Shown here in pieces: positions 9,817-44,306 of a stretch of DNA of 64,000 bases (position 1 is its first letter; every line of letters begins with the position of its first letter). Source of the stretch: Allopusillimonas ginsengisoli (GTDB lineage: Bacteria; Pseudomonadota; Gammaproteobacteria; Burkholderiales; Burkholderiaceae_B); NCBI RefSeq assembly GCF_004153455.1, contig NZ_SDQE01000001.1, forward strand, positions 1 to 64,000, given 5' to 3'. A program made the position numbers and the translations under genes. Under the pieces are notes generated by a model. The model made no database searches. It had not been told where the DNA came from and was given only the letters and a program-made list of their open reading frames with translations.

Positions 9817-9890
9817 AGCAGCATCAGGAACAACCGCTGCAAGGCGCCGCCTGACGCCAGTTGCCCATCCCATCACACACGGAGTTATAC

Positions 9891-11291
9891 ATGGCCATTT
9901 CTTCCATTGGCGTAGGCTCGGGCCTGCCACTCGATGCGCTGCTAAGTGATCTGCGAAAGGCCGAAAACAGGCCATTGTCACTGATAGAGAGCAGGGCAGC
10001 CTCCACGCATAAAAAACTCGGGGCTTACGATTCAATAAAAGGCGCGGTTCAGTCCCTACGCTCGGCCGCCCAGGCGTTAGCGGCTCCGGCAACATTCGGC
10101 GCTCTTGCGGTTAACTCGCAAAGCAATGCAGTGACCGCAAAGGCATCCACAGCAGCCATCGCTGGCAAGTACGCCATAAGCATCCAGCAACTGGCAACGC
10201 ACCAGACACTGGCGAGCACAGGGCAGGCGGATCGCGAAGCCAGGCTGGCAAACGGAAGCGTGAGCATCACCTTCGCGTTCGCAACTGGAGAACCCAGAAC
10301 CATTACCCTCAGCCAATCAGAGACAAGCCTGGATGGCATCGTCAAGGCAATCAATGGCTATACAGGGGCTGGTCTTAACGCCACGCTCATCAATGACGGA
10401 AGCAATTCGCCGCATCGCTTGCTGCTTACTACAGCGGATTCCGGAACAGACAATGAAGTCTAATCCATCACAATCGCGGCTGTGGACACCAATACAGATG
10501 CAACAGCCTTGCAGACACTGCTCGCCTTCGAAAAAGGATCTGCGGGAAACCTCGCCGAGACAGCCGCCCAACAAGCCAGGTTGGACATCAACGGAATACA
10601 GCTGGAAAGCAGCAGCAACACCCTGCACAATGCAATAGAAGGCGTCACCCTGACGCTTTCGAGCACAACCGCTACGGGTGAACCCCACATGCTCACCCTG
10701 GCTCGAGACGATGCTGCGGCTCACGCTGCCATCAGGTCATTTGTGGGCGCGTATAACAATCTGCAAGGTGTTATCAAGTCGCTTACAGCCTACAACGCGG
10801 ATAAGCAACAAGGCGGTCCGCTCACGGGTGATGGCCTGGCCCGTCGACTTCCCGAAAGACTACGCCAAGGCCTTCACACTTCTGTTAACGGCGCCACCAC
10901 ACTTACGTTGCCCGAGCTCGGTATTACAAGCAAGCCCGACGGCACGCTCGCCATTGATGACACCCGGCTCGACAAGGCAATAAAGGACAACTTGTCCCAG
11001 GTAAAATCACTGCTCACCGGCGAAAATGGTTTCGGAAGCCGGATTTCCAGCATCGCGGATCTCTACCTCGAGCCTGGCGGTGAACTTGAGCGCATCAACG
11101 CCACAATGACTACCACGCTCAAGGCACTGAACAAACAGTTCGAGGCCGTCTCGGCCCGCATAGATGCAAAAATGGAAACCTACCGCAAGCAATTTGTGCA
11201 ACTGGATGCCATGGTGGCGCAAATGAACTCTCTGAGCAATTATCTAACCCAGCAGCTCTCCATGTTGGAACGTTCCGCCAAACAGAAATGA
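9891..11291 (+). pseudogene. fliD: Flagellar cap protein FliD, interrupted by an in-frame stop
   Basis: FliD caps the filament and helps flagellin subunits fold at the tip. The frame starts at ATG 9891 (MAISSIGVGSGLPLDALLSDL, the conserved N-terminal helix) and reads well for 190 codons to ...DSGTDNEV. It then meets TAA at 10461-10463 and continues in the same frame as SITIAAVDTNTDATALQTLL to a normal C-terminal coiled region ending LSNYLTQQLSMLERS. The full frame would encode about 466 residues, normal for FliD. No frameshift is needed; a single base change, for example TCA or CAA to TAA, explains it. A GTG at 10482 could restart translation of the C-terminal 269 residues. A sequencing error is possible. 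Confidence 0.85.
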
Positions 11292-19696: not shown

Positions 19697-20188
19697 ATGT
19701 CTCAGAAATCGTCAAACAATACTATCACGGCTGCAAAGCTCGCCATGCTCATCGCTTTCATTGCTGTAGCCAGCTCGGGAGCTACATTGGCCTTTCAGAA
19801 ATACGCCGGCCTGAGTCCGGCGAACGCGGAGTTATCGACGCGTGGTGGCTACGCGCCAGCGGCACCCGCACCTGATCCTATATTCGTGCCGCTGGATCCA
19901 TTCACCGTAACCCTGCCCGGCGATTATAAAAACCGCGTCCTGTACGCAGCCATTACCTTACGTGTCGGTGATCAACAATCGGCCAGCATCATAAACGCCT
20001 ATATGCCTGAAGTAAGAGACCGAGCACTCAGACTGCTGGCCCAGCAAAACGTTCATGATGTTCAAACCAGCGAAGGGCGCGCCGCGCTTGTTGATATTCT
20101 TCGCAGCGAACTTGCTCAGCCATACACGCCAGAACCGGAGGGCCCAAACATTGGCGATGTATTGTTCACCGCCTTCGTGGTTCAGTAA
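19697..20188 (+). CDS. fliL: Flagellar basal body-associated protein FliL
   Basis: A 163-residue single-pass inner membrane protein that surrounds and supports the MotAB stator. One membrane helix at about residues 13-33 is followed by a periplasmic domain. That domain holds FVPLDPFTVTLPGDYKNRVLYAAITLRVGD and ends in DVLFTAFVVQ, the family's typical end. It is the first gene of the fliLMNOPQR operon and overlaps fliM by one base (TAATG). Confidence 0.95.
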   Translation: MSQKSSNNTITAAKLAMLIAFIAVASSGATLAFQKYAGLSPANAELSTRGGYAPAAPAPDPIFVPLDPFTVTLPGDYKNRVLYAAITLRVGDQQSASIINAYMPEVRDRALRLLAQQNVHDVQTSEGRAALVDILRSELAQPYTPEPEGPNIGDVLFTAFVVQ

Positions 20189-21180
20189 TGTCCTACCAAA
20201 GCCTGCTGTCGCAGGAGGAAGTCGATGCACTTCTGGCCGGCATTACGGGCGAAAGCCAAAGTCAAACCCCAGAAACCGTCAGTAGCAGCGGAATCCGATC
20301 TTATGACCTTGGCTCGCCAGACCGCGTGGTCCGGCATCGCATGCAAACGCTCGAGCTCATCAACGAGCGGTTTGCACGCAGCCTACGCGCAACGCTGCTG
20401 TCGTTCATGCGGCGTAACGCTGATATCACAGTCGGCAATATCCGCATCCAGAAGTATTCCGACTTTGAACGGAACCTGCCAGTACCCAGTAACCTGAACA
20501 TGGTCAGCATGAAACCGCTGCGCGGTATTTCGCTGTTCACTTACGATCCCAAACTGGTCTTTCTGGTGATCGACAGCATGTTCGGCGGGCACGGACGCTA
20601 CAACATCCGCGTGGAAGGTCGAGACTTCACGACAACAGAGCAGCGCATCATCCGGCGTCTGCTCAATCTGACGCTGGAAAGCTATGCGTCGGCCTGGGCG
20701 CAGGTTTATCCGATAGAGTTCGAATACATACGATCGGAGATGCATACCAAGTTCGCCAGTATCACCAGCGGCAACGAAATCGTGGTCGCAACATCATTCA
20801 ATATCGAACTGGGCGCGTCTGGCGGAAATCTGAACATATGCCTGCCCTATTCAATGATAGAACCCGTACGCGATCTGCTGACGCAGCCCTTCCAAGAGCT
20901 AAGCACGCGCGACATCGACCAACGATGGACACAGCAACTAACGCGCCAGGTTCGCAGTGCCGATATTGATCTGATCGCAGAGCTCGGCAAGGTGCAAACC
21001 AACATTGCCCGGCTCATGACGCTCAAAGTTGGCGATGTCATGCCTGTCGATGTTCAGCCCACAATAATTGCCAGCGCCGGTGGTGTGCCCGTCATGGAAT
21101 GCGACTACGGCATCGTCCATGGACGCTATGCCCTGCGCGTGAAACGTATGTTCACGATGTCCGAAACCGAAATTTCCTGA
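20188..21180 (+). CDS. fliM: Flagellar motor switch protein FliM
   Basis: A 330-residue C-ring protein that binds phosphorylated CheY. The start MSYQSLLSQEEVDALLAGI is the conserved CheY-binding peptide and is intact, so a CheY-P response remains possible on this side. The middle CheC-like domain has MVSMKPLRGISLFTYDPKLVFLVIDSMFGG. The C-terminal SpoA domain (DVQPTIIASAGGVPVMECDYGIVHGRYALRV) pairs with FliN. Confidence 0.97.
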   Translation: MSYQSLLSQEEVDALLAGITGESQSQTPETVSSSGIRSYDLGSPDRVVRHRMQTLELINERFARSLRATLLSFMRRNADITVGNIRIQKYSDFERNLPVPSNLNMVSMKPLRGISLFTYDPKLVFLVIDSMFGGHGRYNIRVEGRDFTTTEQRIIRRLLNLTLESYASAWAQVYPIEFEYIRSEMHTKFASITSGNEIVVATSFNIELGASGGNLNICLPYSMIEPVRDLLTQPFQELSTRDIDQRWTQQLTRQVRSADIDLIAELGKVQTNIARLMTLKVGDVMPVDVQPTIIASAGGVPVMECDYGIVHGRYALRVKRMFTMSETEIS

Positions 21181-27039: not shown

Positions 27040-27861
27040 TCAATGATCCGCATCAAAATACGACATGATGGAAATCAGTTTATTTGCATACTCGGGGTCG
27101 GTGGCGTAGCCCGCATCCTGTATCCGACGCGCAGCCTCTTGCGCGCAGTCCGTCTGGGTAACGCCGCGATAACGAGCGCTTTGAGTTATCAGGCGAGCAT
27201 AGTCGGAGAATGATTCCATATAGGAACCATAGGCACGAAAAGCCTGAATCAATTTTTGAGGCTTGCCGTCCACGTATTCCGTGGTGACAACATTCGCCAC
27301 TTTTCCGGACCAGCCCGCGCCAGCTTTGATGCCAAAGAGATTAAAGCTGCCTGAGCCATCCTCATGCCTGATCTCCCGCCGACCCCACCCCGACTCCAGG
27401 GCGGCCTGGCTAAGTATCAATTTTTCGGGTATACCGCTATGCCGGGCAACCAAGCTGGCCGAATCAGCAAGCTTGTCAATAAACGCCCTGACATGCCCGG
27501 GTATGTTCCTCACAGCCTTTGCCACGCCGGTTGGCGAGGCCGTTGCGCGCAGTTGCTCAAAGAGCGCTTGAGCCAATCCCAGACCAGGGTTTGCCAGGCC
27601 AAGCGCAGTCTGCTCATCGTTCAAAGCCTGCGCCATCCTCACCGGCTCCCCATCCAATAGGGGCGTTGCAACACTCGCTTGCCTGGCCTGCTTGAGCATC
27701 AACTGAATGAACAAAGCTTCGAACTGCTGCGCCACTTGTTGCTGCGCTGCCTTGGGTTCAGTGTCCGTTCTGAGCTTCTGCCGCAAGGATGCAAGGCCAT
27801 TGAAATCCAGCGAAGTTCCAAGCCCTTCAACAGGGCGCGGTATGTATCGAACAAAGGACAT
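27040..27861 (-). CDS. flgJ: Flagellar rod-assembly protein / peptidoglycan hydrolase FlgJ
   Basis: A 273-residue two-domain protein. The N-terminal rod-cap domain has LRQKLRTDTEPKAAQQQVAQQFEALFIQLMLKQARQA near residues 26-62. The C-terminal glucosaminidase-type domain includes LILSQAALESGWGRREI near residues 145-165, with the catalytic Glu in ALESGWG, and then NLFGIKAG. It opens the cell wall for the growing rod. It lies 8 bp after flgI in the flgB-flgJ operon. Confidence 0.95.
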   Translation of the reverse strand: MSFVRYIPRPVEGLGTSLDFNGLASLRQKLRTDTEPKAAQQQVAQQFEALFIQLMLKQARQASVATPLLDGEPVRMAQALNDEQTALGLANPGLGLAQALFEQLRATASPTGVAKAVRNIPGHVRAFIDKLADSASLVARHSGIPEKLILSQAALESGWGRREIRHEDGSGSFNLFGIKAGAGWSGKVANVVTTEYVDGKPQKLIQAFRAYGSYMESFSDYARLITQSARYRGVTQTDCAQEAARRIQDAGYATDPEYANKLISIMSYFDADH

Positions 27862-39388: not shown

Positions 39389-40036
39389 TTACAGCCCTAG
39401 ACTAGCCAGCAACTCATCCACCTGATCCTGGCCAGTGACGATATCCTTTTTTTGCTCGTGACCGCGCCCGGGACCATTCAAGCGAGAAAATGCTTCATCG
39501 CGCCGTTCCTGGGGTACGCTATCTATCAGTACTTGGACGAGTTCGGTTTCCAGGGTGGCCATCACGCCTAGCATCTTCGTGATGACTTGACCAGTCAGAT
39601 CCTGAAAGTCCTGCGCCAGGATGATTTCTCTCAGCAAATCCTGTGTTTCCTGGACCTTGCCTGGCACGTCGGCCAACAGCGTACATGTGTCGTCGACAAT
39701 CAGACGGGCCTCCGGTATATCCAAGGGCGTTTCGAACCAGTTTTGCCAGCGCATCGCCAGGCCTTCGGCATCGCGCCTGAGTTGATCTTGCAGCGGCATG
39801 GTGCGCTCCGCCGCGTTCAGGACGCGATTTGCGGCCTGCTCTGTCATGCTCGCAACGTAGTGCAGCCTATCGCGTGCATCGGGAATGGCGTGCGCCGCAT
39901 CCTTGATCGCCGTGTCCAACCCCAGTTCACGCATGCTTTGCCTGAGCGTACGGGTTACCAAGGCAATGCGGTGTATGAGGTCGGGGTTTCCGGAGGCATC
40001 GTTGTCTGAGACCAGGAAAGTGTCTTTGCTATTCAT
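39389..40036 (-). CDS. cheZ: CheY-P phosphatase CheZ
   Basis: A 215-residue four-helix-bundle protein that removes phosphate from CheY. The catalytic helix [24 protein letters not shown] contains the conserved DFQDLTGQ with the catalytic Gln. The C-terminal CheY-docking helix [12 protein letters not shown] is intact. It overlaps cheY by 4 bases. It appears intact although the upstream kinase is truncated. Confidence 0.95.
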
Positions 40037-40434
40037 GATGTTTTCTTCGCCGCAAGCTTCTCGAAAATCCTGCTCAGTTTTTCCTCCAGCGTCGCCGCTG
40101 TAAAGGGCTTGACCACATAGCCATCGGCTCCGGCCTGGGCTGCCGCGATGATGTTTTCCTTTTTTGCTTCGGCCGTCACCATGAGCACTGGAAGTGCGCT
40201 CAGCGCCGGTTCCGCCCGAATGTGCTTGAGCATGTCCAACCCATTCATGTGCGGCATGTTCCAGTCCGAGACTACGAGCTCAAAGCTGCCGTTCCGCAGC
40301 TTCTCCAGACCCTGCGCACCGTCCTCGGCTTCGTCCACGTTCTCGAACCCCAGATCCTTCAACAGGTTCTTGATGATCCTGCGCATGGTCGGAAAATCGT
40401 CGACCACCAGGATTTTCATCGTTTTCTGTACCAC
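40033..40434 (-). CDS. cheY: Chemotaxis response regulator CheY
   Basis: A 133-residue single-domain response regulator that binds FliM when phosphorylated. Active-site residues are all present: Asp12 and Asp13 in [10 protein letters not shown], the phospho-acceptor Asp57 in [12 protein letters not shown], Thr87 in [10 protein letters not shown] and Lys109 in YVVKPF. The GTG start at 40434 has a GGAGAG 6 nt upstream; the internal ATG at 40419 has no such site. It sits directly after the shortened cheA with only 132 bp between. Confidence 0.96.
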
Positions 40435-40566
40435 TTATGCTCTCCGGTTAATACTTGCTTCCCCGCCCTTCATCCGGTTTGGCCGATGGCGTTGCCGCCC
40501 TCCGCGTGCGGACCGTGCTCTTTGGCGTGACGGGCGCTGCGCGAATTAGTCTCGAAGCTTTTAAGC
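40435..40566 (-). other. Short cheA-cheY gap where other chemotaxis genes are expected
   Basis: Only 132 bp separate the cheA stop codon from the cheY start. Related genomes carry cheW, a receptor gene, cheR, cheD and cheB here. One minus-strand frame is open to a TAA at 40448-40450 and reads basic, Pro-rich sequence (APVTPKSTVRTRRAATPS) that could be the tail of a lost gene or chance. A likely deletion junction lies within or next to this stretch. Confidence 0.5.
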
Positions 40567-42192
40567 TCACCCGGGTGCGGCCTGTACAGGCCTGCCATCC
40601 CGCGTGGCCCGCGTCAGCGGCAGCGTAATCCGTGTAGTTGTGCCTTGCCCCGCCCGCGAGAACAGCTGTATCTGCCCGCCTATAGCGTGGATGTTGTGCC
40701 TGACCACGTCCATGCCAACGCCTCGTCCCGAGATTTCGGTAACCTGATTGGCGGTGGAGAAACCTGGCAAAAGAATGAGCGGCCACAATTCATTGTCTGG
40801 TGTACTGTTGGTGACAGGCAGCCCCAACGACAACGCCTTGCGTAAAATGCGGTCTCGTTGCAACCCGGCGCCATCATCCGACACTTCAATGACAAGGTGG
40901 GCGCCATGAGGCGCTGCCGAAAGCGTCAGGTTTCCGTGAGAGCTCTTTCCCGCTGCCCGGCGCTTTTCGGGTGTTTCTATGCCATGATCCACGCTATTGC
41001 GCACAATATGCGTAAGCGGGTCGATGATGCGCTCTATCAGGCTTCTGTCCAGCTCGACTTCTCGGCCTTGGATAGCTAGCCTGACCTTCTTGCCCAGCTT
41101 TGCGGCACTGTCCCGCGCGATTCGCGCCAGGCGGCCGAACACGGCATCCATCGGCATTGCACGCATGAGCATCATTGCTGATTTCAGGTCGAGCGCATTG
41201 CGCTCGAACCGTTGGATCGCCCGGAACAGACGGGGATGATCGGCCGGATCAAGTGCAGACGATGCGTTCACGGCCATCGCCTGCGTCATGATAAGTTCAT
41301 CGACCAGATCAATGACTTGGTCTAACTTTTCAACACCCAGCCGGATACTGCGGCCCAAGGGGGTCTGCGGCTGTTCGCTGGAAACGGGCGGCGAAGATTT
41401 TGACGGCGCGTCAATGGCTGAGCTGAGTCCGGCTGTGTTGGCCGAAAACGCAGAGCTCGTAAGATTGTTGCAGCCAAGCGGATTTTCATTGAACACCCGG
41501 ACTTGATCCGCTTTAACGGTGAAGCCGCATACGGCAGCGATGTCGGCAGCCGAGGCACTTGTGTCGAGCCAAACGTCCAGTTCGCCGGCTGACTGTTCCT
41601 GATGTACTATGCTGCCCAGCAATGACAGCTCGGCGAGCAATGCCCCGACATCGTTGTCAGTGACCCGTGATACCCTAACGCAAAATACGGAAGCGCGCGC
41701 AGCCGTCGCTGCCGGCTCACGCATAGGGCTTGGCATGCCCGCAACCACCGAGGCGTCTGGCGTAGCATCCCCATGGCAAGGGGCTGCTGCCGCAGCTGCT
41801 TGCAACCGGGCGCAGATTCGTCGGCTAGCCTGAACATCAGGCTCTTGCCCATTGCGATAGGAAATGACCTGGCCCTCCAGCACGTCCTTCGTTTCCAGCA
41901 GAAGATCCAGCATCCAGGTTTGCAAAGGCATTTTGCCACTGCTGAGCAGGGCGACCACGTTTTCCAGGGAATGGCTGGTCTCCGCCAGGATTCCACACGC
42001 CCCGACCATAGCCGCCCCCCCTTTTATGGAGTGGGCTGCGCGAAATATCGCTTGAAACTGATCAACGTCGGGATTGCTGGTATCAAGGCTTAGCAGCTGC
42101 TGCTCAATCGTCGCCAGCAACTCCTCAACTTCTTCGAAGAAGGCTTCGGAGAGCTGGTCGTCATCCCCATCTGCGCTCATGCCTGTACCCAT
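40567..42192 (-). CDS. cheA: Chemotaxis histidine kinase CheA lacking the P5 domain
   Basis: A 541-residue kinase. P1 holds the phospho-His at residue 54 in FRAAHSIKGGAAMVG. After a short variable P2-like region comes P3, with IRLGVEKLDQVIDLVDELIMTQAM. P4 has the N box HIVRNSVDHGIETPEKR, the G1 box VSDDGAGLQRDRI and the G2 box ISGRGVGMDVVRHNI, so the catalytic core looks complete. The chain then ends at TTTRITLPLTRATRDGRPVQAAPG. P5, of about 140 residues, which binds CheW and receptors, is absent. The last ten residues look like a decayed P5 beginning. Typical CheA proteins are about 650-700 residues. It follows motB after 4 bp. Confidence 0.88.
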   Translation of the reverse strand: MGTGMSADGDDDQLSEAFFEEVEELLATIEQQLLSLDTSNPDVDQFQAIFRAAHSIKGGAAMVGACGILAETSHSLENVVALLSSGKMPLQTWMLDLLLETKDVLEGQVISYRNGQEPDVQASRRICARLQAAAAAAPCHGDATPDASVVAGMPSPMREPAATAARASVFCVRVSRVTDNDVGALLAELSLLGSIVHQEQSAGELDVWLDTSASAADIAAVCGFTVKADQVRVFNENPLGCNNLTSSAFSANTAGLSSAIDAPSKSSPPVSSEQPQTPLGRSIRLGVEKLDQVIDLVDELIMTQAMAVNASSALDPADHPRLFRAIQRFERNALDLKSAMMLMRAMPMDAVFGRLARIARDSAAKLGKKVRLAIQGREVELDRSLIERIIDPLTHIVRNSVDHGIETPEKRRAAGKSSHGNLTLSAAPHGAHLVIEVSDDGAGLQRDRILRKALSLGLPVTNSTPDNELWPLILLPGFSTANQVTEISGRGVGMDVVRHNIHAIGGQIQLFSRAGQGTTTRITLPLTRATRDGRPVQAAPG

Positions 42193-42196
42193 GCGC

Positions 42197-43120
42197 CTAG
42201 GGCTTGGCGCTCGAAGCGGACGTAGAATCTTGCTGCATCGAACTCAGATGCTCATCAACCCTGGCACCAGATGCGCGTGATTCATGCTGCTGGTCTATAC
42301 GCCGCTCGGCCTGCCGATTGAGAACGACAATGCTGATTCGACGATTAACAGCCGCTGCAGGATTCTCTTTGACCAGGCTCACGGACGAAGAAAGACCAAC
42401 AACACGCTTGATCTTGGCCTCGTCCATTCCACCATTCACCAGCTCTTTGCGCGCGGCATTGGCCCGATCAGCGGACAGCTCCCAATTGCTGTACTCTCGC
42501 TCGCCAGTCGCATACCGCAGAGAATCTGTATGGCCCGAGATGCTGATACTGTTGGGCAGGCCGTTGAACATGGGACCAAGCTGCTGAAGAATGTCTTGCA
42601 TGTAAGGCTGAACCTGAGCGCTGCCTGTCGCAAACATAGGCCTGTTTTGCCTGTCGATAATCTGCACTCGTAACCCGTCAGGCGTCATGTCCAACAAGAG
42701 TTGCGGGCGGAACTGCCGCAATATGGGATCGGTCTGAATCAGGCTTTCGAGGTCGGATTTTAGATTTTCAAGACTCAAGGTATCGCGCTGATCCATGTCG
42801 AGTTCCTGAGCATCGCCTGCGCCGTTTCCCGGCAAGGGCTGTGTGTTGGGAATCACGCTGGGTTCTCCACCAGGAATCATGTTACGCGCATCGCCCATCC
42901 GGGGGCCGCCCGTAATTGCTGTCATCAAAGGCATACGAAAATACTCAGCGATTGCACCCAATTCGTTCCGGGGAACCATGGAGAGCAGCCACATAACAAG
43001 GAAAAAGGCCATCATGGCGGTCATGAGATCGGCATAGGCGATTTTCCAACTTCCGCCGTGGGCGGCTTCGGCGCATGGTCGTTTTCTGCGTATAACAACA
43101 CGCGGCTGGGATTTGCTCAT
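42197..43120 (-). CDS. motB: Flagellar stator protein MotB
   Basis: A 307-residue stator subunit anchored to peptidoglycan. The single membrane helix includes SWKIAYADLMTAMMAFFLVMWLLS, with the proton-carrying Asp of YADLMTAMMAFF. The OmpA-like domain has NSISISGHTDSLRYATGEREYSNWELSADRANAARKELV. The plug region follows the helix. It overlaps nothing and lies 6 bp after motA. Confidence 0.96.
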   Translation of the reverse strand: MSKSQPRVVIRRKRPCAEAAHGGSWKIAYADLMTAMMAFFLVMWLLSMVPRNELGAIAEYFRMPLMTAITGGPRMGDARNMIPGGEPSVIPNTQPLPGNGAGDAQELDMDQRDTLSLENLKSDLESLIQTDPILRQFRPQLLLDMTPDGLRVQIIDRQNRPMFATGSAQVQPYMQDILQQLGPMFNGLPNSISISGHTDSLRYATGEREYSNWELSADRANAARKELVNGGMDEAKIKRVVGLSSSVSLVKENPAAAVNRRISIVVLNRQAERRIDQQHESRASGARVDEHLSSMQQDSTSASSAKP

Positions 43121-43126
43121 GCCTTT

Positions 43127-44002
43127 CTACTGCGCCGTTTTGTTTGTGCCGCGAGCTTGCCGGACGTGCGCCTCAAGCTCCATGAAAGAGGGGCGCACAT
43201 GGGAATACAACACCTTGCGTCCAAACTCCACGGCCAGTTGAGGAGGATAGCCGCTCATGCTTGCGAGCATAGTCACCTTGATACATTCGAGCACCTTGAG
43301 GAAGGTCCCCGAACGGCGCTCTATGGTGCTTGCCAGCGGTCCGACAAAGCCGTAGGCCATCAGGATTCCCAGGAATGTGCCCACCATGGCTTTGGATATC
43401 AGGTCGGCCAACACGACGGGAGGAGCATCGACTGAGGCCAGCGCCTTGATGACGCCCAGCACCGCGGCCACAATGCCGAAGGCGGGCAATGCGTCGGCCA
43501 CGGCTCGCAATGCATCAACGGGAACGTGCTTCTCGTGGCGCTGCGTCTCCAGATCCTGATCCATCAGGGTCTCGATTTCGTATGCGCTCATGTTCCCACT
43601 TATCATCAGCCGCAAGTAGTCTGCGATGAAGTCCATCAAGCCCTCATCATTGAGGATGCGCGGATATTCGGCAAATATCGGACTGGAGGCGGGGTCTTCG
43701 AAATCGCTTTCGATGGACATGAGGCCATCGCGTCGCGCTTTGTTCAGCAGCACATACAGCAGAGCCATCAGCTCCATGTACAGATCCTTGCCGTATGGAT
43801 TCTTGGCGACGGCAAGCGGTATGGCTCGCAACAGCATTTTGACTGATTTGCCGTTGCTGGCGGCCAGGTAGGCACCCAGCGCCGCGCCCCCAATCAGCAC
43901 AAACTCAAATGGCTGATACAAGGCGCCCAAGTGGCCACCCAACGCAACAAACCCACCGAATACGGAGAGAAAAACAATCAAAAAACCAATCAGAATAAAC
44001 AC
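43127..44002 (-). CDS. motA: Flagellar stator protein MotA
   Basis: A 291-residue stator subunit with four membrane helices. The N terminus VFILIGFLIVFLSVFGGFVALGGHLGALYQPFEFVLIGGAALGAYLA matches MotA starts, so GTG 44002 is preferred. Further ATGs at 44044 and 44194 are in frame but add residues unlike the family. The cytoplasmic loop has ELMALLYVLLNKARRDGLMSIESDFEDP with the charged residues that meet FliG. The end GTFLGILMAYGFVGPLASTIE is typical. The leader 44003-44306 must hold a promoter, but only a poor sigma-28 match was found. Confidence 0.93.
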   Translation of the reverse strand: MFILIGFLIVFLSVFGGFVALGGHLGALYQPFEFVLIGGAALGAYLAASNGKSVKMLLRAIPLAVAKNPYGKDLYMELMALLYVLLNKARRDGLMSIESDFEDPASSPIFAEYPRILNDEGLMDFIADYLRLMISGNMSAYEIETLMDQDLETQRHEKHVPVDALRAVADALPAFGIVAAVLGVIKALASVDAPPVVLADLISKAMVGTFLGILMAYGFVGPLASTIERRSGTFLKVLECIKVTMLASMSGYPPQLAVEFGRKVLYSHVRPSFMELEAHVRQARGTNKTAQ

Positions 44003-44306
44003 CGTTAAACCTTGAACAGATAGGTGTGTCAATGATCCGCGCATTCGGTTGACCGAAATGCACTGACAACAGGGCTTTTCAGGGCCAGATCCACGTGCTG
44101 TTTTGACAACGCTGCGATCGCTGCAAGCCAGTGATATCGACCGGAAATACAGCCCCCCCAACCCAAGGTCGGAGGTGCCTGAAACGCCTGGCACTAGCCT
44201 TGGCGACTGTCCAGGAAACCGAAGCGGGCCAGAAACTGCGCCCGAAAGGCTGGAAAGGTGCTCAACTTTATGGCGTCAGTTCACTTCGCGACGCTGTCCG
44301 ATGCCC

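Follow-up and report, generated by a model that had tools for sequence, protein, structure and literature searches.

Natural departures from the five-domain layout of the histidine kinase CheA have been described in a broad survey (Berry, Andrianova and Zhulin 2023, PMC10782961). The cited portion of this survey reports a CheW domain (P5) in 100% of the 13,673 CheA proteins considered, calls it a core domain and states that the P3 domain always co-occurs with it. The archaeal set of the survey was collected with CheW as the query, therefore P5-less forms may have been left out and a claim to describe the first of them would be unsafe. A P5-free fragment has been solved for Thermotoga maritima CheA, namely the P3P4 construct (PDB 4xiv). 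In Pseudomonas putida the proteins CsoR and PhaD bind to P1, P3 and P4 of CheA, not to P2 or P5, and the cited part of that study suggests that they inhibit autophosphorylation through these three domains (PMC11978298). Input that bypasses P5 is thus conceivable and non-array proteins can bind without it, but P. putida CheA itself possesses P5 and works within a chemotaxis system. Our literature search, which covered titles and the openings of abstracts and few subscription papers, returned nothing on a natural P5-less CheA or on a CheA in a receptor-less genome. Here we describe a CheA from Allopusillimonas ginsengisoli that, like the surveyed proteins, departs from the five-domain layout and, unlike all those in the cited portion of the survey, carries no CheW domain.

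The window analysed here comprises 64,000 nucleotides (positions 1-64000) of a 994,801-bp contig (NZ_SDQE01000001.1, C11) of the A. ginsengisoli assembly GCF_004153455.1 (G000), which amounts to 4.52 Mb in 33 contigs and is rated 100% complete with 0.13% contamination. The cheA locus lies in the interior of this contig, where open reading frames and Pfam matches give the minus-strand order flhD, flhC, motA, motB, cheA, cheY, cheZ, flhB, flhA (Table 1). The nearest named CheA relatives are those of Pollutimonas harenae (52%) and Pusillimonas caeni (51%) among the best 80 of 579 relatives, a comparison beyond which P5-less CheAs outside the family may exist. On this basis we assign the organism to the Alcaligenaceae side of Burkholderiales. 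These canonical Burkholderiales flagellar CheAs share with the A. ginsengisoli protein the order motA motB cheA ... cheY cheZ flhB flhA in the stretches read, the succession P1-P2-P3-P4 and the catalytic residues. A. ginsengisoli differs from them in the absence of P5 and in having no CheW, MCP, CheR or CheB match in its assembly.

Table 1. Positions of the cheA locus and of related flagellar features in the window
Feature	Position	Strand	Basis
cheA core, 541 aa, P1-P2-P3-P4 without P5	40567..42192	-	Pfam; AlphaFold2 model; alignment with 22 relatives
P1/Hpt domain, residues 14-96; His54, Lys57, His74, Glu77	41905..42153	-	Pfam PF01627, E 4.6e-14; four residues invariant in 40 CheAs
P2/CheY-binding domain, residues 172-233	41494..41679	-	PF09078, E 2e-18
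P3 dimerisation domain (H-kinase_dim), residues 281-341, strongly diverged	41170..41352	-	PF02895, 35.9 bits, cut-off 23
P4 ATP-binding domain (HATPase), residues 391-527; N, G1, F and G2 boxes kept	40612..41022	-	PF02518, E 1.4e-16
132-bp cheA-cheY junction; place of the P5 part, cheW, MCP gene, cheR and cheB in P. harenae and G004	40435..40566
cheY	40033..40434	-	PF00072; 4/86 invariant sites changed
cheZ, ending in a 13-residue C-terminal peptide	39389..40036	-	PF04344; 5/72 invariant sites changed
motB and motA, upstream neighbours of cheA	42197..44194	-	Pfam; 1/93 and 4/122 invariant sites changed
fliM, with N-terminal stretch LSQEEVDALL	20188..21180	+	Pfam; 330 aa
fliD (flagellar cap gene), split by an in-frame stop (TAA, 10461-10463) into a FliD_N-bearing and a FliD_C-bearing part	9861..11291	+

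The initial annotation had claimed that P5 is missing from this CheA and that the residues of its active site are kept, and both claims hold. Pfam recognises P1 to P4 and no CheW-like domain, and in an AlphaFold2 model all four domains are folded with good confidence (mean pLDDT 83.1, pTM 0.50), although such a model carries little information on damage from substitutions. The last P4 strand spans residues 517-525 of the model and is followed by a loose tail of 16 residues up to residue 541. The model matches solved CheA structures of P3-P4 and of P1, and the T. maritima P3P4 construct aligns with residues 279-527; that construct is a laboratory truncation, whereas the short CheA of A. ginsengisoli is a natural protein. 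Residue H54 is invariant across 40 CheAs, the A. ginsengisoli protein included. By analogy with the E. coli and T. maritima proteins we take His54 to be the phospho-acceptor, and the roles of Lys57, His74 and Glu77 are assumed from the same two proteins. The P1 and P4 residues that we presume to be catalytic likewise do not vary among these 40 CheAs. The canonical CheA core consists of P1, P3, P4 and P5; the protein has P1 with the histidine presumed to accept the phosphate, P3, and P4 with its N, G1, F and G2 boxes, and because P5 is missing it cannot be filed as canonical. It is a CheA by descent, yet it stands outside canonical CheA.

The break point in cheA may lie within the first P5 strand, since, as judged by eye, similarity to the first residues of P5 in relatives (e.g., LDGMSVQVG) persists in the tail of the protein (DGRPVQAAPG). 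Downstream of it, the interval to cheY has the annotated length of 132 bp. Comparison of this junction with the che intervals of ten relatives by blastn and tblastx gave chance-level matches only, the lowest tblastx E value being 0.007 in antisense. A search for direct repeats that would mark a deletion yielded short, imperfect pairs that fall into six families, and no pair tellingly links both sides of the junction. Between positions 40000 and 42400 we counted one promoter-like and one terminator-like site, at or below the means of shuffled sequences (1.0 and 2.6, respectively).

In P. harenae and in one congener (G004) the cheA-cheY interval contains cheW, an MCP gene, cheR and cheB according to Pfam, which agrees with four of the genes that the initial annotation had placed there; cheD, the fifth, was not among the separate open reading frames listed. 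The intervals of G002 and G027 resemble this arrangement by open reading frame size and sequence only. The gap measures 4212-4636 bp in 16 of the 20 relatives with both cheA and cheY in the stretch fetched and 2449-2612 bp in the other four, so that the missing block is nearer 4.3 kb than the 5-6 kb first proposed. Two of the short gaps belong to congeners (L122 from G001, L117 from G003) and two to other genera (L126 from G012, L120 from G022); in G001, cheW, cheR and cheB are present and the MCP gene is absent. Shorter versions of the block therefore exist, and the interval is empty in none of the 20 relatives. Two of the fetched loci show irregular frames of their own. The cheB of G004 (L116:8847-9919) consists of two overlapping frames with the receiver apart from the methylesterase, either through a frame break or as a natural split, and in L124 (G021) the reading frame of cheA is broken close to the P4 end, with the P5 match in a separate 218-aa frame, reflecting either a frameshift or an error.

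We then consider the remainder of the chemosensory input. Profile searches of the whole assembly at E <= 0.001 returned no match to CheW/P5 (PF01584), none to the MCP signalling domain (MCPsignal, PF00015) and none to CheB, CheR or CheD, and they found one CheA. Among 14 control genomes the CheW/P5, MCP, CheB, CheR and CheD profiles matched in 7, 7, 6, 7 and 5, respectively, and the congeners G001, G002, G003 and G004 have 3, 6, 3 and 4 MCP matches with two CheW-type matches each. The searches read through stop codons, therefore the assembly contains no broken copy of the input genes at this threshold either. Since the input profiles match nowhere in the assembly, the single internal deletion originally thought sufficient does not account for the locus, and the loss is larger than claimed. 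These searches also refute, as far as this assembly goes, an unlinked CheW or a free P5 domain encoded elsewhere, a possibility raised in the initial annotation. We rejected a CheV-type protein on the absence of any CheW/P5 match, and a second CheA on the whole-assembly search that gave only one. A chemotaxis system is defined by an array of receptors, CheW and CheA; here MCP and CheW are lacking, as are CheR and CheB, and the output-side genes for CheY, CheZ and FliM are present. The A. ginsengisoli che set cannot be filed as a chemotaxis system.

To place this genome among its relatives, the lists of CheW and P3 matches from 268 genomes of the family were matched up by eye. A CheW match was found in 193 genomes and a P3 match in 190, and P3 without CheW occurred in A. 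ginsengisoli and in G252, an 89% complete draft of 540 contigs whose P3 match falls within a 1582-aa open frame that does not resemble a flagellar CheA. A. ginsengisoli is thus the only one of the 268 with a flagellar-type CheA and no CheW, in a count based on a weakly conserved profile that could miss a CheA with a below-threshold P3. Among 61 genomes, 51 match the CheA of the window and 49 match CheW; the two with CheA and without CheW are A. ginsengisoli and G033, in which the only CheA match is a 51-residue stretch (E 4.7e-4) within a 472-aa frame. G033 and another genome of the family, G023, each have one MCP signalling match and no CheW match.

Next, proteins of the window were aligned with those of up to 22 relatives. 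CheA has a mean identity of 52.2% to the relatives, which share 69.2% among themselves. The corresponding pairs of values are 73.0% and 75.1% for MotA, 64.5% and 64.3% for MotB, 75.5% and 80.2% for FlhA, 59.3% and 66.5% for FlhB, 83.8% and 88.2% for CheY, and 61.6% and 69.5% for CheZ. Within CheA the largest drop is in P3 (50.9% against 90.4%), followed by P1 (54.9% against 78.6%) and P4 (66.7% against 82.3%), and the drop in P2 is small (41.4% against 50.3%). A fixed 20-taxon tree was used to compare the A. ginsengisoli branch with the other branches and with four control proteins. Its relative acceleration was 4.7 in P1 (1.8 in the next taxon), 3.0 in P4 (2.2 in the next taxon), 1.05 in P2, 1.3 in CheY and 1.6 in CheZ; the P3 branch length of 9.3 is saturated and was not used as a number. 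G021 was kept in the identity averages and dropped from the acceleration, domain, box and invariant-site counts on account of its CheA frame break. G036 and G024 have no cheY, cheZ, flhB or flhA in the fetched stretch and therefore stand outside the acceleration tree and the invariant-site counts of those genes.

The same pattern emerges from sites that are invariant in the relatives (21 for CheA, MotA and MotB; 19 for CheY, CheZ, FlhB and FlhA). Of 242 such sites in CheA, 68 (28.1%) are changed in the window protein, against at most 2.0% in any other focal taxon. The changes number 2/67 in FlhB and 4/225 in FlhA, and the counts for the other proteins are given in Table 1. CheZ (6.9%, maximum in relatives 6.5%) and MotA (3.3%, maximum 3.2%) fall just above the range of the relatives and CheY falls within it (4.7%, maximum 5.5%), in line with the initial claim that the key residues of CheY and CheZ are preserved; a slight relaxation of CheZ is possible because of its position just above the range. 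By domain, the changed sites of CheA are 20/59 in P1, 1/12 in P2, where 12 sites were available for the test, 23/50 in P3 (residues 279-345) and 21/110 in P4 (P3 versus P4, p 0.001).

Constraint within P4 is uneven. The ATP-binding boxes are changed at 3/50 invariant sites compared to 18/60 in the rest of the domain (Fisher p 0.0014). All 12 of the changed hydrophobic sites in P3 remain hydrophobic (expected 7.5, p 0.003), as do 25 of 28 in the whole of CheA (expected 17.9, p 0.0025), and this test taken alone is not significant in P1 (7/8, p 0.21) or P4 (6/8, p 0.38). We defined the box borders and the class of hydrophobic residues ourselves, following known motifs, and the tests assume independence among sites. 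We also simulated neutral evolution, without indels and with undated divergence, from two present-day relatives to the divergence observed in P3. The frame remained open in 1/800 and 0/800 runs, and the simulated P4 boxes had a mean identity to the starting relative of 0.58 and 0.55 with maxima of 0.82 and 0.81, compared to observed values of 0.89 and 0.87. The gene does not behave as a pseudogene, in that no stop or frameshift interrupts P1-P4 and the catalytic residues are still constrained. Its GC3 of 0.64 resembles that of its neighbours (0.60-0.74), which is uninformative. The uneven constraint and the neutral simulation indicate that, over much of the period of P3 drift, selection acted on both the open frame and the ATP site. 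P3 is the part of CheA near the receptors in the array, and its divergence consequently fits a release from the array with catalysis kept. The drift of P3 could have begun before P5 was lost; because the short CheA occurs in one genome only, comparison cannot demonstrate conservation after the loss, and the order of events is undated.

On the output side, Pfam identifies CheY, CheZ, FliM, FliG, FliN and flagellin; the C-terminal peptide of CheZ and the N-terminal stretch of FliM are both in place. The end peptide of CheZ is presumably its CheY-binding element, and the LSQEEVDALL stretch of FliM we take to be the docking site of phosphorylated CheY. FliM and FliG both align over their full length in all six relatives compared, FliM with 74.5-79.4% identity. 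FliC does so in two of the six, with partial alignments in two and no hit in two, and FliH, FliK, FliN and FlgN are among several proteins that align only partly with some relatives. The genes fliQ, flgF and flgG were observed solely as open frames. FlgJ (27040-27861) has 273 residues compared to 328-332 in six relatives and aligns end to end, with about 50 residues missing inside. In six relatives, one uninterrupted frame of 468-474 aa corresponds to the two parts of fliD on either side of its TAA. The stop is either recent or an error, since the part after it (47-52%) is about as conserved as the part before it (46-55%). A profile search found no second FliD_C in the genome, the sole match being the interrupted gene itself, and a second fliD was rejected on this result. 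If the stop is real, the isolate may now be without filaments and its flagellum may not work today.

What is directly observed, namely the loss of the domain, the absence of the input genes from the assembly, the uneven constraint and the intact frame, is best explained in our opinion by retention of the P1-P4 core as a receptor-free CheY kinase that gives undirected switching, to which we assign an even chance. The lineage would long ago have lost its whole chemosensory input, that is, the receptors, CheW, CheR, CheB and the P5 domain of CheA, and selection would afterwards have kept P1-P4 for some time as a receptor-free kinase. P3 would dimerise CheA, ATP bound in P4 would be used to autophosphorylate P1, and P2 would dock CheY; phosphorylated CheY would then reverse the motor via FliM, and CheZ would strip the phosphate. 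The motor would then switch at a roughly constant rate without sensing, so that the cell turns at random and does not steer. Of the alternatives offered in the initial annotation, a functional direct CheA-CheY pathway is the better supported; we infer its activity, and fliD is interrupted. Kinase activity, phosphotransfer to CheY and the behaviour of the cell, like the age of the loss and a divergence of CheA after it, belong to this reconstruction. The interrupted fliD argues against a present use of the pathway. The divergence of P1 (4.7), the hydrophobic-site test that is not significant in P1 or P4 alone, and the values of CheZ and MotA just above the range of the relatives also count against our reading. 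Receptor-free E. coli CheA is a weak kinase. It further counts against our reading that, in the cited part of a study of E. coli strains deprived of CheW or of every receptor, spreading in soft agar was not regained in short-term evolution (PMC12270135).

The strongest competing account is a decaying remnant, in which the pathway stopped working with the deletion, CheA, CheY and CheZ survive as genes still to be lost, and the divergence of P3 and P1 reflects relaxation, perhaps begun before P5 was lost. The disappearance of all input genes and the in-frame stop in fliD speak for this account, and CheA alone lies far beyond the range of the relatives, with CheZ just above it. The 541 codons without a stop or frameshift are harder to reconcile with decay, as are the spared ATP boxes, the changed P3 sites that are still hydrophobic, the rarity with which an open frame survives the neutral simulation and a CheY inside the range of the relatives. 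We regard it as rather unlikely, with an appreciable chance left to it. A bolder form of the receptor-free kinase is improbable: P1, P3 and the P3-P4 linker would have been reshaped after the loss of P5 and the receptors, giving an array-free, one-piece motor kinase with direct cytoplasmic input. Improbable too is a CheA re-plugged to a non-receptor input, such as a cytoplasmic protein or metabolite acting on P1, P3 or P4, or to a non-flagellar output. P1 and P3 are indeed the most changed domains, and CsoR and PhaD of P. putida set a precedent in the cited part of that work (PMC11978298), but no gained gene is visible in the 132-bp junction, and the retention of the flagellar output proteins points to the motor as the target. 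That the che block and the receptors exist in the organism and were dropped from the assembly, a draft of 33 contigs, is very improbable given its 100% complete rating, the position of the locus inside a 995-kb contig, the absence of cheW, cheR and cheB from any other contig on which a misjoin would have left them, and the diverged P3, which an error does not explain.

If the bolder form were true, A. ginsengisoli would possess a one-piece flagellar-motor kinase that the present definition of CheA excludes. For the receptor-free kinase that we prefer, a kinase core, a response regulator and a phosphatase without a sensory part would amount to a natural test of CheA acting alone. The locus would separate the parts of CheA that are conserved for catalysis from those conserved for the receptor array, with P3 the most released, and it would show how evolution dismantles a chemotaxis pathway, down to a domain reported as universal in CheA in the cited portion of the survey (PMC10782961).
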